Below, piece by piece: positions 5,798 through 11,027 of a stretch of 64,000 bases of DNA. The stretch is from the NCBI RefSeq assembly GCF_017313765.1, contig NZ_JAFLNC010000002.1, positions 1 through 64,000 of the forward strand. The letters are read 5' to 3'. Made by a program: the position numbers and the translations under genes. How positions within the stretch are numbered: position 1 is the stretch's first letter; each line of letters opens with the position of its first letter. The stretch comes from Sneathiella sedimenti. Its GTDB lineage: Bacteria > Pseudomonadota > Alphaproteobacteria > Sneathiellales > Sneathiellaceae. The notes below the pieces were generated by a model. It saw nothing but the letters and a program-made list of their open reading frames with translations. It searched no databases and had not been told where the DNA came from.

Positions 5798-7711
5798 ATG
5801 CTGAGCGAATTAGCCATTCTCATCTGCTTGCTTGTCATGTTAACCGTTTTTTGGAGGCGGAAAAAGCGGCTCACTCACGTCAAGTTAGGACGGGATTTAA
5901 TAAACTACGGCCTGCTTATCGTGGTAATCGCGTCCTTCGTCGATCTTTTGTTTGTTGGTGACGGCTCGGTATTCAATATCGGTTTTAGCGATATAAATTC
6001 ACTGGAAGTATGGAATGCCGTTGGTTATTTGCCGGGCCTCGTGCTGGTTGCGATCGGCATGTCGCGCATGCTTCCAGCTATTGAACGTCTCAATCAGGAG
6101 ATTCAGGCCAGGATAATCTCCGAAGAAAAGCAACGGGAACAAAATAAGCGTCTTCAGTTGACTATCGCCCGAGCTGAGACAGCCGAAACCACACTACTCG
6201 ATGCCATCGAATCAATGCCGGAAGGCGTTGCAATTTTCGATCCGAACGACCGGCTTTACGTTTGTAACAACCCCTATCGTGAGCGGTATAAGAAACTTGC
6301 GGACAAGGTACAGTCAGGCGTCCATTTCAATGAACTCGTCCGTTTGATGGTCGAAATGAAGCGGGTGCCGGAAGCGGTTGGCAGGGAAGAAGAATATATT
6401 GCGGCTCGAATCAAGGAACATAACAATCCAGCCGATCCGGTAGAGCAGGAAATGGACGATGGTCGGATTTACCGGCTATCCGAAACAAAGACCAAATCGG
6501 GAGGCACAGTATCCATTCGAACGGATATTACCGATATTCGTGCCCGTGAGCAGGCTCTTAAGGAAAATCGTGCAAAACTGGAGGAAGCTCAGGCCATCGC
6601 CCATATCGGTAACTGGATGCGTGATACTCGCGCCGACAAACATGAGTGGTCGGATGAAATTTTCCGCATTTTGGGATGCCAGCCTGGCGAAATCGAGCAA
6701 AGCTACAGCAATTTTATGTCCCGGGTACATAAAAACGATGTCGCACGTCTGCGCTCAGTCTTTGAGCATACGAACGAAAGTCTTGAGCCGTTCGAAGCGG
6801 AGTTCCGTGTGGTGCAGGATGGGGGCAGTATTGTTTACGTCAGGTTACTGGGGCGGGTGAATACTGATGAAAATGGAGTTGTGACAGGGGGCAGCGGAAC
6901 CCTTCAGGATATCACCACCCAGCATATATTTGAGCGCGAACTGATGCAGGCGAAACTGGAAGCGGAAGAGGGCACGAGATCAAAATCTCTGTTCCTTGCG
7001 AATATGAGTCATGAGCTCCGGACGCCGCTAAACGCCGTAATCGGCTTCTCCGAAGTTCTGGCGAAAGAAATTTTCGGCCCTCTGGCGAACGACCGGTATC
7101 GCGAATATGCCGACAACATCCAGTCCTCGGGTCGGCACCTGCTATCGCTAATCGATGATATTCTGGAATATTCGCGTCTGGAATCTGACTCCATCGAACT
7201 GCAGGAAACGGAGTTTAATCTCCTGAAGGCAGCAGAATCGACGAAAACCATGTTGTTGGCTAAGGCAAATGAAAAGCGGATCAGCTTTTTCCTTTCGAAG
7301 AATCTCGATATCGAGATTCGGGCTGATGAAAGAAAGCTGAAACAGGTGCTCATTAATCTTGTCAATAATGCCATAAAATTTACGCCGGAGAATGGACTGA
7401 TAGAATTGGACCTAGCTGAAGATTCGGATAATTTTATTTCGCTCTATGTGATTGATAACGGTTATGGCATCAGCAAGGATGAAATTAAGAATGTGATGCG
7501 CCCGTTTGGACGGACGCATTATTCCATATCAAAATCGATTGAGGGAACAGGTCTGGGACTCCCGCTTGCGAAATCAATTGTCGAGTTGCATGGCGGCATG
7601 TTGAAAATCAAATCCAATGCGAATAAACCGGGAACAACGATCGAGATACGTTTGCCAAAATCCCGGGTGGTAGGCCCGGAGCAGAATGCCCCCCGTCTGA
7701 ACGTAATTTAA
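5798..7711 (+). CDS. PAS-PAS sensor histidine kinase
   Basis: A 637-residue membrane kinase. Three hydrophobic segments occupy about residues 1-90, followed by a coiled stretch (95-125), a PAS domain (about 128-245, with ESMPEGVAIFDPNDRLYVCNN), a second PAS_3-type domain (about 265-385, with IAHIGNWMRD), HisKA with the phospho-acceptor His405 in MSHELRTPLN, and a HATPase_c domain with N box (NLVNNAIKF), G1 (VIDNGYGIS) and G2 (GTGLGLPLAKSIV). There is no receiver domain and no response regulator beside it, so it is an orphan kinase. AAGGGA precedes the ATG. The signal is not evident. Confidence 0.93.
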   Translation: MLSELAILICLLVMLTVFWRRKKRLTHVKLGRDLINYGLLIVVIASFVDLLFVGDGSVFNIGFSDINSLEVWNAVGYLPGLVLVAIGMSRMLPAIERLNQEIQARIISEEKQREQNKRLQLTIARAETAETTLLDAIESMPEGVAIFDPNDRLYVCNNPYRERYKKLADKVQSGVHFNELVRLMVEMKRVPEAVGREEEYIAARIKEHNNPADPVEQEMDDGRIYRLSETKTKSGGTVSIRTDITDIRAREQALKENRAKLEEAQAIAHIGNWMRDTRADKHEWSDEIFRILGCQPGEIEQSYSNFMSRVHKNDVARLRSVFEHTNESLEPFEAEFRVVQDGGSIVYVRLLGRVNTDENGVVTGGSGTLQDITTQHIFERELMQAKLEAEEGTRSKSLFLANMSHELRTPLNAVIGFSEVLAKEIFGPLANDRYREYADNIQSSGRHLLSLIDDILEYSRLESDSIELQETEFNLLKAAESTKTMLLAKANEKRISFFLSKNLDIEIRADERKLKQVLINLVNNAIKFTPENGLIELDLAEDSDNFISLYVIDNGYGISKDEIKNVMRPFGRTHYSISKSIEGTGLGLPLAKSIVELHGGMLKIKSNANKPGTTIEIRLPKSRVVGPEQNAPRLNVI

Positions 7712-7839: not shown

Positions 7840-9036
7840 TTGCAACTGCTCCAGGATTGTGAGGGCTATGTCGCTGATCGCGAGCATGCCCTAGCCGGTT
7901 TGCGGCGATATGAAAACGAAGCGACAGCTCTTGAAATCGAGCAGTCAAACGATGCTGTCCACTTTCTGTATATCGACAAGATTGCAGAGGCGGCCAGCAA
8001 CTTTCTCACCGGATTTCCAGGTACTTGTCTTTATGCGGCGAAAGCTAACCCGCATCCGGCGCTTCTGCGTCTGCTGTGGGCTGCGGGTATTCGTCACTTT
8101 GAAGTCGCCTCGATCCGGGAGATTGAGAATCTGCGTCGCGATTTGCCAATGGCGCAGCTTTATTTCATGCACCCGGTCAAAAGCCGGCAGGCAATTGCCC
8201 GCGCCTATGCGCTTGGCGTGCGCCATTTTGCCTTCGACAGCCTTGACGAACTTCGCAAGATAAAGCAGGAAACCGGCCATGCCGAAGACCTGTCGCTGAT
8301 GCTGCGTCTCAGTGTATCGCAGGTTGGTGCGGCATATCCGCTCGACAATAAATTTGGCGCGACATTGATGGAGGCTCCGCTTCTCCTCACCCATGCCCGC
8401 CAGATCGCTGAGAAAGTCGGCGTAACTTTCCATGTCGGCTCGCAATGTCTTGAGGTCGAGGCATATGTCAATGCCATCTACAATATCGCCAATATGCTGG
8501 AAGGTTGCGGTGTCAAGATCGATATGATTGATGTCGGCGGTGGTTTCCCGATTTCCTATCCGGATATGGAGCCTGCGCCGCTGCAGGATTATTTCGACGC
8601 AATCGCCAAAGCCCTGATGGAATGCGGCTTTGAAGATCTCGAGATTTTCTGTGAGCCGGGCCGGGCGATGGTTGCCGCAGGCGGAGCCGTCGCGGTAAGG
8701 GTTGAACTTCGCCGTGGGCAGTCGCTATACTTAAATGACGGCACCTATGGATCGCTCTTCGATGCGGGCCAGCTGGGCTGGACTTATCCGATTGAGCTAT
8801 ACCGGGCCGGACGGCTGGAAGTCCTTTCGGAAACGTCGCTATTTCAACTCTACGGGCCGACATGTGACAGCATCGACAAGATGCAGGATCGACTTTCGCT
8901 CCCAGAGGATGTGTGTGAGGGCGACTGGCTTATTTTCCGTCATTTGGGGGCTTATGGTTACGCCATGCAAACCAAATTCAACGGATTTTACTCCGAAACA
9001 GTCGTGGCGATCGAAGGCGGCGCCGAACTCGCGTAA
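7840..9036 (+). CDS. PLP-dependent ornithine/lysine decarboxylase (fold III)
   Basis: A 398-residue group IV decarboxylase. Lys68 in YAAKANP carries the PLP, His198 in HVGSQ stacks on the ring, VGGGFP and EPGR (272-275) hold the phosphate, and Cys342-Asp343 in GPTCDSID are the residues donated across the dimer. This pattern is that of eukaryotic-type ornithine decarboxylase, which makes putrescine; close relatives also use lysine, and diaminopimelate decarboxylase is less likely because of the GPTCDSxD motif. The start is a TTG, the first available after an in-frame stop, with AGGTGGA 9 bases upstream. It opens a cluster with a deoxyhypusine synthase-like enzyme and a ureohydrolase (gaps 33 and 20 bases), so a polyamine role is likely. 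Confidence 0.92.
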   Translation: MQLLQDCEGYVADREHALAGLRRYENEATALEIEQSNDAVHFLYIDKIAEAASNFLTGFPGTCLYAAKANPHPALLRLLWAAGIRHFEVASIREIENLRRDLPMAQLYFMHPVKSRQAIARAYALGVRHFAFDSLDELRKIKQETGHAEDLSLMLRLSVSQVGAAYPLDNKFGATLMEAPLLLTHARQIAEKVGVTFHVGSQCLEVEAYVNAIYNIANMLEGCGVKIDMIDVGGGFPISYPDMEPAPLQDYFDAIAKALMECGFEDLEIFCEPGRAMVAAGGAVAVRVELRRGQSLYLNDGTYGSLFDAGQLGWTYPIELYRAGRLEVLSETSLFQLYGPTCDSIDKMQDRLSLPEDVCEGDWLIFRHLGAYGYAMQTKFNGFYSETVVAIEGGAELA

Positions 9037-9069
9037 CGCAACTATTCAATAAAAGGCATTGAGGTCATT

Positions 9070-10107
9070 ATGATGAAAACCTCTCAAAGTAACGATAAGG
9101 CGGCTCTCCTTTCGAAGACCGTCGAGCATATCGATTTTAAAAGTTTTGACGCCCGACCAATCATTGACGCCATGGGCAAGATGTCCTTCACCTCGCGTGA
9201 TCTCGCACGGGCGACGGAAATTTTTAACATGGCCGTTGAAGACCCGGATTGCGCTGTCATCCTGACCCTCGCGGGATCGACATCCGCGGGCGGCTGTATG
9301 CATGTTTACCGGGATCTGGTGGAATTGGGCATGGTGGACGCGATTGTGTCCACCGGTGCTTCCATCGTCGACATGGATTTTTTCGAGGCGCTCGGCTTTC
9401 GCCACTATCAGGCCGACAGTTCTGTCGACGATAATGATCTGCGGGCGCTTTATATCGACCGTATTTACGACACCTATATCGATGAGGAAGAACTCCAGCA
9501 TTGCGACGAGACGATCAAGCTGATCGCCGATAGTCTGGAGCGGCGCCCTTATTCCTCACGGGAGTTTATCCAGGAAATGGGCCGTTGGCTCAAAAGCAAT
9601 TCGGTCAAGAAGAACTCCTTGATCGAGACCTGCTTCGACCATGATGTGCCGATTTTTGTTCCGGCTTTTTCCGATTGCTCCGCCGGGTTTGGCCTGGTCA
9701 AGCACCAGGTTGAAAACCCGGACGCACATTTGAGTATCGATAGCGTAAAGGATTTCCGTGAGCTGACGGAAATCAAGATCGCCGCTGGCACAACGGGCCT
9801 GTTGATGGTTGGTGGCGGTGTTCCGAAAAACTTTGTTCAGGACACGGTTGTCTGCGCGGAAATTCTCGGCAAGGAAGTGGATGTACATAAATACGCGGTG
9901 CAGATTTCCGTCGCTGATGTGCGCGACGGTGCCTGCTCCTCTTCCACCCTGAAGGAAGCGGCAAGTTGGGGCAAGGTCAGCACCAATCTGGAACAGATGG
10001 TCTTTGCCGAGGCTTCATCGGTTGTACCACTCCTGGCGTCTGATGTTTATCATCGCGGCGGATGGAAGAACCGTAAGCCCAGAAAATTCACCAAGCTGTT
10101 TCAGTAA
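9070..10107 (+). CDS. Deoxyhypusine synthase-like protein (polyamine synthase)
   Basis: A 345-residue member of the NAD-dependent deoxyhypusine synthase fold. GSTSAGGCMHVYRDL and AIVSTGASIVDMDF form the Rossmann-like NAD region, and SWGKVS contains Lys302, matching the lysine that carries the aminobutyl group in the eukaryotic enzyme. Where that enzyme has GGGVxKHH, this one has GGGVPKNF, so a histidine of the polyamine pocket is replaced. Bacteria lack eIF5A, so the product must be a small molecule; homologues are annotated as homospermidine or 1,9-bis(guanidino)-5-aza-nonane synthase. The flanking ornithine decarboxylase and ureohydrolase support a polyamine product, but which amine is used is inference. 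Confidence 0.85.
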   Translation: MMKTSQSNDKAALLSKTVEHIDFKSFDARPIIDAMGKMSFTSRDLARATEIFNMAVEDPDCAVILTLAGSTSAGGCMHVYRDLVELGMVDAIVSTGASIVDMDFFEALGFRHYQADSSVDDNDLRALYIDRIYDTYIDEEELQHCDETIKLIADSLERRPYSSREFIQEMGRWLKSNSVKKNSLIETCFDHDVPIFVPAFSDCSAGFGLVKHQVENPDAHLSIDSVKDFRELTEIKIAAGTTGLLMVGGGVPKNFVQDTVVCAEILGKEVDVHKYAVQISVADVRDGACSSSTLKEAASWGKVSTNLEQMVFAEASSVVPLLASDVYHRGGWKNRKPRKFTKLFQ

Positions 10108-10127
10108 CAGATTGCTGGATTAAAGCT

Positions 10128-11027
10128 ATGAAGGCTCCATTTGATATTCTACCCTCGGAAGAAGGGTTCCTGGGGTTGCCCGCGGAAGAAGCGGTCGACT
10201 ATGCGACGGCCAAAGCGGTGATAATCCCTTTCGGTCTTGAAGGGTCCGTCAGCTATGGCGGCGGGACAGCCATGGGACCCGCTGCCATGATCGAGGCGAG
10301 TCATCAAGTGGAGCTTTTTGATGAAGACCTTTGGTGTGAACCGTTTCGCAACTTTGGCGTTGTTACGATGCGGGAGCAGCCTGTCGACGGCAGTGATATC
10401 AAGAAGGCGGTCGATGATCTGGCGGCATTGACGGGGAACGCGTTGTCTGATGGGAAGTTCCCTCTCGTTTTCGGCGGGGAACATTCGATCACTCCCGGTG
10501 CGATACGGCCGTTTCTGGAAAAATATGATGATCTGATCATTTTGCATTTTGACGCCCATGCGGACCTGCGGGATGGCTTTGAGGGGGAACATTACTCTCA
10601 TGCCGCCGCAATCCGGCGCGTTCTTGATCATCCCACGGTACCCATTGTCTCCATTGGCATTCGTAATATCTCGGCGGAGGAAATCCCGTTCCTGGACGCA
10701 AACCGTCATCGTATTACGATTCACTGGGGCAAGGATCGCGAAAACTGGCGCGTTGAGGATATTGTTGCCCCTCTTAAGGACCGGCCCATTTATCTGACGT
10801 TCGACCTTGATGGTTTTGACGGGTCACTGATGCCGGCCACCGGAACGCCGGAGCCGGGCGGGGTGTTTTGGAATGATGCGATCAATATCATCAAGGCGGC
10901 GTCGAAAACCGGTAAAATAGTTGGTGCCGACATCAACGAACTTGCGCCGATAGAAGGGTTTCACGCGCCGAATTTCCTGGCGGCAAAGTTAGCTTACAAG
11001 ATACTTTCCTTTGCTTTTTCGCGTTGA
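10128..11027 (+). CDS. speB: Agmatinase-like ureohydrolase
   Basis: A 299-residue arginase/agmatinase fold enzyme. The binuclear manganese ligands are visible: His119 in GGEHS, Asp142, His144 and Asp146 in HFDAHADLRD, and Asp226 and Asp228 in TFDLDGFDGS, followed by the family signature ATGTPEPGG. Ureohydrolases remove urea from a guanidino group; agmatine to putrescine is the common reaction. Because the gene directly follows the deoxyhypusine synthase-like gene, a bis-guanidino polyamine is an alternative substrate. The ATG at 10128 has only a weak ribosome-binding site. Arginine decarboxylase is not in the window, so the source of any agmatine is unknown. Confidence 0.9.
   Translation: MKAPFDILPSEEGFLGLPAEEAVDYATAKAVIIPFGLEGSVSYGGGTAMGPAAMIEASHQVELFDEDLWCEPFRNFGVVTMREQPVDGSDIKKAVDDLAALTGNALSDGKFPLVFGGEHSITPGAIRPFLEKYDDLIILHFDAHADLRDGFEGEHYSHAAAIRRVLDHPTVPIVSIGIRNISAEEIPFLDANRHRITIHWGKDRENWRVEDIVAPLKDRPIYLTFDLDGFDGSLMPATGTPEPGGVFWNDAINIIKAASKTGKIVGADINELAPIEGFHAPNFLAAKLAYKILSFAFSR

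Follow-up and report, generated by a model that had tools for sequence, protein, structure and literature searches.

A conserved decarboxylase–SpeY–ureohydrolase operon of Sneathiella sedimenti predicted to lead from arginine to homospermidine

The window analysed here is a 64,000-nucleotide stretch at the start of contig C2 of the Sneathiella sedimenti genome, which comprises 3.58 Mb in 8 contigs. It contains three co-directional genes encoding, in order, a pyridoxal phosphate (PLP)-dependent decarboxylase (DEC), a deoxyhypusine synthase (DHS) homologue (SpeY), and a ureohydrolase (Table 1). The intergenic gaps are 33 bases (DEC/SpeY) and 20 bases (SpeY/ureohydrolase), as described in an earlier sequence-only reading of the locus, and the G+C contents of the three genes are 0.547, 0.528, and 0.539, respectively, that of the window being 0.532. 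The same reading had taken the trio for a polyamine operon, a view that is upheld here.

Table 1. Genes of the operon and the gene directly upstream (positions in the window)
Feature	Positions	Strand	Remarks
DEC: alanine-racemase-fold PLP decarboxylase of the ornithine decarboxylase family, predicted arginine decarboxylase	7840–9036	+	398 aa, TTG start; PF02784/PF00278
SpeY: DHS homologue, caldomycin-synthase type (NF002699)	9070–10107	+	345 aa; PF01916
Ureohydrolase, predicted agmatinase type	10128–11027	+	299 aa; PF00491, TIGR01230
PAS-domain sensor histidine kinase, directly upstream of the operon	5798–7711	+	Family search

The arrangement of the trio is not due to chance. Within the host family, 20 of the 25 genomes searched (the window genome among the 20) contain a match to NF002699, the NCBI model whose cut-off SpeY exceeds, and all 20 show the order decarboxylase–SpeY–ureohydrolase in tblastn. 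The nearest named SpeY relative among the matches listed, with 91% identity, is from a Sneathiella metagenome-assembled genome (MAG). From a scan of named genomes, the best 80 SpeY loci (L002–L081) were kept. A decarboxylase match was found in 74 of these, always upstream and on the same strand, and within 1 kb in 73 of them; in L076 it lies 2.2 kb off, and in L058 and L069 it is truncated by a contig edge. A ureohydrolase is present in 8 of the 80 loci, 5–168 bases downstream. The decarboxylase–SpeY pair thus forms the shared core, to which a ureohydrolase is added in some loci. An N-carbamoylputrescine amidase motif occurs in at least 8 of the 80 loci, at least 5 of which also contain an open reading frame (ORF) of a deiminase-like cluster, these counts being lower bounds because ORF calling is unreliable in part of the G+C-rich loci. 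For two of the five deiminase-like ORFs that were run, the best model was agmatine deiminase (252.5 and 254.2 bits; cut-off 483). Two amidases were also run, and the L046 enzyme exceeded its cut-off while the L063 enzyme fell short. The deiminase homologues at L071:6889–7965 and L046:9882–11027, which score well under the NCBI agmatine deiminase cut-offs, possibly represent a subfamily with another guanidino substrate.

SpeY scored 579.6 bits against NF002699 (curated cut-off 500), which is named for bis-guanidino synthesis, and its only Pfam match was PF01916 (301.8 bits). In a control search with NF002699, 7 of 14 genomes, including Thermus composti, gave a match, and three that are not named individually were above the cut-off. 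The earlier description of the middle enzyme as DHS-like holds, and it fits no DHS model at cut-off: the scores were 273.6 for PRK00805 (cut-off 434), 204.7 for TIGR00321 (304.25), 198.7 for PRK02301 (364), 137.9 for PRK01221 (350), and 120.3 for PRK03971 (380). The protein eIF5A, named in that reading, is not known to occur in bacteria.

Seven residues have been named in CdmS, a DHS homologue of Thermus, i.e. S67, E136, D143, F204, L286, E293, and K299 (PMC10981699). Their counterparts in SpeY of the window are S70, E139, D146, F207, C289, E296, and K302, six of the seven being identical at a constant offset of +3, and SpeY is therefore assigned to the CdmS type by sequence. A homologue on a Trichormus plasmid, also over the NF002699 cut-off, has all seven residues at an offset of -4, and a DHS on a Haloferax alexandrinus plasmid and a PRK00770-like protein each have three. 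The easiest reading of the SpeY residues would be agmatine coupling.

The product of the third gene scored 205.9 bits against the agmatinase model TIGR01230 (cut-off 174.3) and 200 bits against PF00491. It contains the motifs GGEHS, DAHAD, and DLDGFD at protein positions 116, 142, and 226, respectively, which we take to be metal ligands. The enzyme is predicted to be of the agmatinase type and to act on agmatine or caldomycin.

DEC matched PF02784 (Orn_Arg_deC_N; 148.8 bits) and PF00278 (Orn_DAP_Arg_deC; 39.7 bits) and cleared no NCBIfam cut-off, the best model being lysA (142.2 bits; cut-off 297.9). In a tree of 34 decarboxylases, hand-chosen from those fetched, 28 SpeY-linked decarboxylases, including those of four Pelagibacterales loci and of genomes G095 and G176, were split with a support of 96/96 from six plasmid decarboxylases (out of 60 listed), for which no SpeY was seen adjoining, one of the six records being without annotation. 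DEC grouped with the SpeY-linked Pelagibacterales homologues and is 42–44% identical to the decarboxylases of the four Pelagibacterales loci; among the 28, the window clade is not particularly close to the Pelagibacterales clade. The split was also found in quick trees, one of which omits 11 SpeY loci without a usable decarboxylase row, and the long branches of L118 and L121 leave the outgroup side unsure. The decarboxylases of G095 and G176, in which the order DEC–SpeY–agmatinase is that of the window, nest inside the Pelagibacteraceae clade. In that lineage, two purified 'ornithine decarboxylases' (ODCs), one from Ca. Pelagibacter ubique and one from Ca. Fonsibacter ubiquis, are reported to have used only L-arginine (PMC9992855, Table 2). 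A histidine following LFDA and one further residue was considered as a marker of true ODCs and dropped, as Brevundimonas loci bearing it carry amidase homologues; two of these loci (L019 and L046) also have deiminase homologues nearby.

Elsewhere in the genome, PF02784 matched one protein besides DEC, i.e. lysA on contig C1 (484.6 bits; cut-off 297.9), and neither OKR_DC nor the agmatine deiminase family PF04371 gave any match. Among the families searched, DEC therefore appears to be the sole entry to di- and triamines. If it were an ODC, the ureohydrolase of the operon would receive no agmatine from these families, import and a pyruvoyl-type arginine decarboxylase (ADC; PF01862, outside the families searched) being possible sources. 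A second PF00491 protein, on contig C6, is an arginase (277.8 bits; cut-off 227.6) and adjoins an ornithine cyclodeaminase gene. The same contig carries speD (125.8 bits; cut-off 75.65) and speE (309.2 bits; cut-off 249.55) together, so that spermidine is probably synthesised as well and an aminopropyl acceptor is needed. A second spermidine synthase homologue, on contig C1 (L093:1240–2184), is under the NCBI cut-offs (231.6 against 260 and 222.7 against 249.55), and agmatine is conceivable as its substrate. Homospermidine synthase of the Blastochloris type, which presumably carries PF03435, was sought through this family; the two short matches obtained, of 25.8 bits (cut-off 25.1) and 21.7 bits over 64 and 73 profile positions, were weak and were dropped, which leaves no convincing candidate.

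Co-occurrence was analysed in 193 evenly drawn alphaproteobacterial genomes of at least 95% completeness. NF002699 was over its cut-off in 13 genomes, including the window genome. Eight of these have an over-cut-off agmatinase gene directly adjoining that for SpeY and are without PF04371, and the other five have a PF04371 protein and lack an agmatinase over the cut-off. The two are combined in none of the 13, compared with 27 of the 193 genomes overall. An over-cut-off agmatinase or a PF04371 protein is thus found in all 13 SpeY genomes vs. 95 of the 180 others (one-sided Fisher's exact test, P = 0.0004, with no correction for kinship), a value that is too small because the 13 include the window genome and two congeners of it, as well as two further pairs in which both genomes belong to one family. 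Genome G188, whose weak NF002699 match (82.9 bits) adjoins an agmatinase gene, was left out of the SpeY group and would be its 14th member. In a study of clustered polyamine genes, the presence of SpeB or AguA/AguB was taken as a hint of ADC activity, which was borne out by assay for SpeD-derived enzymes (PMC10407285).

Several published systems resemble the operon. In the clusters of Ca. Pelagibacter ubique and Ca. Fonsibacter, an ODC-homologue decarboxylase and SpeY are likewise combined with one or more agmatine-using enzymes, but two of the decarboxylases there have been assayed as arginine-specific, whereas the specificity of DEC is predicted (PMC9992855). Thermus thermophilus has, like the window, a DHS homologue and a ureohydrolase: purified CdmS is reported to have consumed agmatine, and neither putrescine nor spermidine, to make caldomycin; conversion of the latter to homospermidine by the ureohydrolase TtSpeBap passed in small part through N1-aminobutylagmatine, a minor intermediate (Kobayashi et al. 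2024, PMC10981699). The spacing of the named residues is identical in CdmS and SpeY, which differ at one of them (Leu vs. Cys). The SpeDA–SpeB–SpeY clusters described in diverse bacteria and archaea also unite an arginine decarboxylase, an agmatinase, and SpeY, but their decarboxylase is pyruvoyl-dependent and SpeD-derived, whereas that of the window is of the PLP type (PMC10407285). In Haloferax volcanii, a DHS homologue is encoded beside an agmatinase-like gene and agmatine has been proposed as the donor; the acceptor there, however, is the protein aIF5A, unlike the small-molecule route proposed here (PMC5178350).

The trio most likely turns arginine into homospermidine by a type of route that has been described before from other bacteria. 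In our proposal, DEC would convert arginine to agmatine, SpeY would couple agmatine, probably to caldomycin, and the ureohydrolase would remove both guanidino groups of caldomycin as urea to yield homospermidine; it may also convert agmatine to putrescine and thereby feed the separate speD–speE pathway. Every substrate in this scheme is predicted from sequence, and we consider the order arginine, agmatine, (probably) caldomycin, homospermidine to be evenly balanced as a whole. Its parts differ in strength. Homospermidine is very probably the end product by either of the two routes considered here, and with good though somewhat lesser confidence DEC is predicted to act on arginine. On balance, we lean slightly towards SpeY coupling agmatine rather than putrescine. 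The naming of DEC as ODC-like in the sequence-only reading is thus right as to family, but the substrate is probably arginine, since the genome has no PF02784 protein other than DEC and lysA, and DEC falls with SpeY-linked homologues of the lineage in which the two assayed enzymes used only arginine.

A number of observations count against this proposal. The PDB matches of DEC are headed by lysine/ornithine and ornithine decarboxylases, from 139.6 bits downwards, and a viral arginine decarboxylase (2nv9) ranks lower, at 104.9 bits. The decarboxylase tree includes neither the two assayed Pelagibacterales enzymes nor chromosomal ODCs of known function, and the step from agmatinase to ADC is not absolute: Methanolacinia, with an unclustered speB, has been placed among potential ODC forms (PMC10407285). 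For SpeY, one of the CdmS residues is changed from Leu to Cys (C289), and the residues were compared by their published positions, the CdmS sequence itself being absent from the comparison. Their guanidino-binding roles were deduced by docking, and mutagenesis was described as still in progress at publication (PMC10981699). The spacing also varies in the family (F208 and C293 in Caulobacter), and all seven residues of the window are invariant in the 81 loci scanned, including Pelagibacterales and Brevundimonas loci with amidase/deiminase genes. In a SpeY tree of 27 labelled, hand-chosen rows, in which named loci were judged on the fetched flanks only and L045 and L053 were labelled as deiminase-type from the amidase alone, the agmatinase-type and deiminase-type labels switch five times, at least three switches being forced by well-supported branches. 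At the 70% level, no SpeY position is fixed differently between the two types.

These last observations bear on a close rival, which we regard as possible but only tentatively so, namely that agmatine made by DEC is converted to putrescine by the agmatinase and that SpeY joins two putrescines into homospermidine. The easiest reading of the interchange of agmatinase and deiminase genomes on the SpeY tree, which occurs even within Pelagibacteraceae-like loci, is that both supply putrescine to SpeY: both enzyme sets yield it by their usual reactions, in keeping with the invariance of the seven residues and the lack of type-specific positions. Where a locus carries amidase and deiminase genes, SpeY would most naturally act on putrescine. 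Anabaena SpeY is described as putrescine-converting, and loss of speA, speB, or speY there ends homospermidine production, a result compatible with either order of reactions (PMC10385936); Pelagibacter SpeY has been termed a homospermidine synthase (PMC9992855). Set against this, SpeY of the window exceeds the cut-off set for the NCBI model named for bis-guanidino synthesis, and its residues and their spacing are like those of CdmS, which did not use putrescine in the assays reported (PMC10981699). The two schemes offered in the sequence-only reading, i.e. putrescine to homospermidine and agmatine to a bis-guanidino compound that is then trimmed by the ureohydrolase, are the two that remain live, and both have already been published.

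It is improbable that DEC is a true ODC forming putrescine, with the ureohydrolase taking agmatine from elsewhere and SpeY perhaps joining putrescine and agmatine into a mixed product. The PDB matches of DEC agree with such an activity, the C6 arginase can make ornithine, and a Pot-like ABC transporter cluster adjoining the arginase gene (read by eye) might import agmatine. The genome has, however, no other PF02784 or OKR_DC candidate for an arginine decarboxylase (pyruvoyl-type ADCs were outside the search), the clade of DEC favours arginine, and agmatine is reported to have been the sole substrate of CdmS in tests in which putrescine was also on offer (PMC10981699). The gene company likewise disfavours ODC activity. 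A mixed guanidino/amino product had earlier been suggested from the presence of both an ODC and a ureohydrolase; this premise is unsupported, and the case is weakened because DEC probably acts on arginine, not ornithine. Such a product is also less novel than was supposed, as N1-aminobutylagmatine has been reported as a minor intermediate of the CdmS and ureohydrolase reactions (PMC10981699).

We think it unlikely that all alphaproteobacterial NF002699 enzymes, including those of SAR11 and Caulobacter, couple agmatine rather than putrescine. If they did, the deiminase/amidase lineages would reach homospermidine via a bis-carbamoyl homospermidine derivative, and caldomycin would be the true target of their agmatine deiminase and N-carbamoylputrescine amidase homologues; no report of such a route was found in the open-licence PMC literature searched. 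The residue pattern of the agmatine-coupling Thermus enzyme is common to sequences from Sneathiella to Pelagibacteraceae, and whether alphaproteobacterial SpeY uses agmatine or putrescine becomes a question testable with purified proteins. In this gene pair, which occurs in many alphaproteobacteria, the decarboxylase has likely been misnamed as an ornithine instead of an arginine decarboxylase. In the same open-licence literature, we found no report of homospermidine in Sneathiella or of a Sneathiella operon of this kind.

Some further observations concern SpeY homologues and neighbouring sequences. On plasmids of Trichormus (L115) and Nostoc (L134), a SpeY homologue adjoins rocD, with iron-transport genes near; each matches the CdmS residues at all seven positions, and that of L115 is the one over the NF002699 cut-off. 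A very divergent DHS homologue (L132; G188:C15:22801–23733), with 81 bits for NF002699 and 112 for PRK00770, adjoins the top-scoring agmatinase gene of the 193-genome sample; one in-frame TAA was counted in it by the genome search. MAGs titled Rickettsia typhi, Rhizobium, and Marinimicrobia (L033, L078, L009, L012, and L037) have decarboxylases that group with those of alphaproteobacterial MAGs and are perhaps misnamed or misbinned. The numbers of promoter-like (2) and terminator-like (3) sites show no excess over shuffled sequences (3.5 and 4.2, respectively). Homologues of the PAS-domain kinase also precede the operon in two other Sneathiella loci, L002 (69% identity) and L004 (45%).

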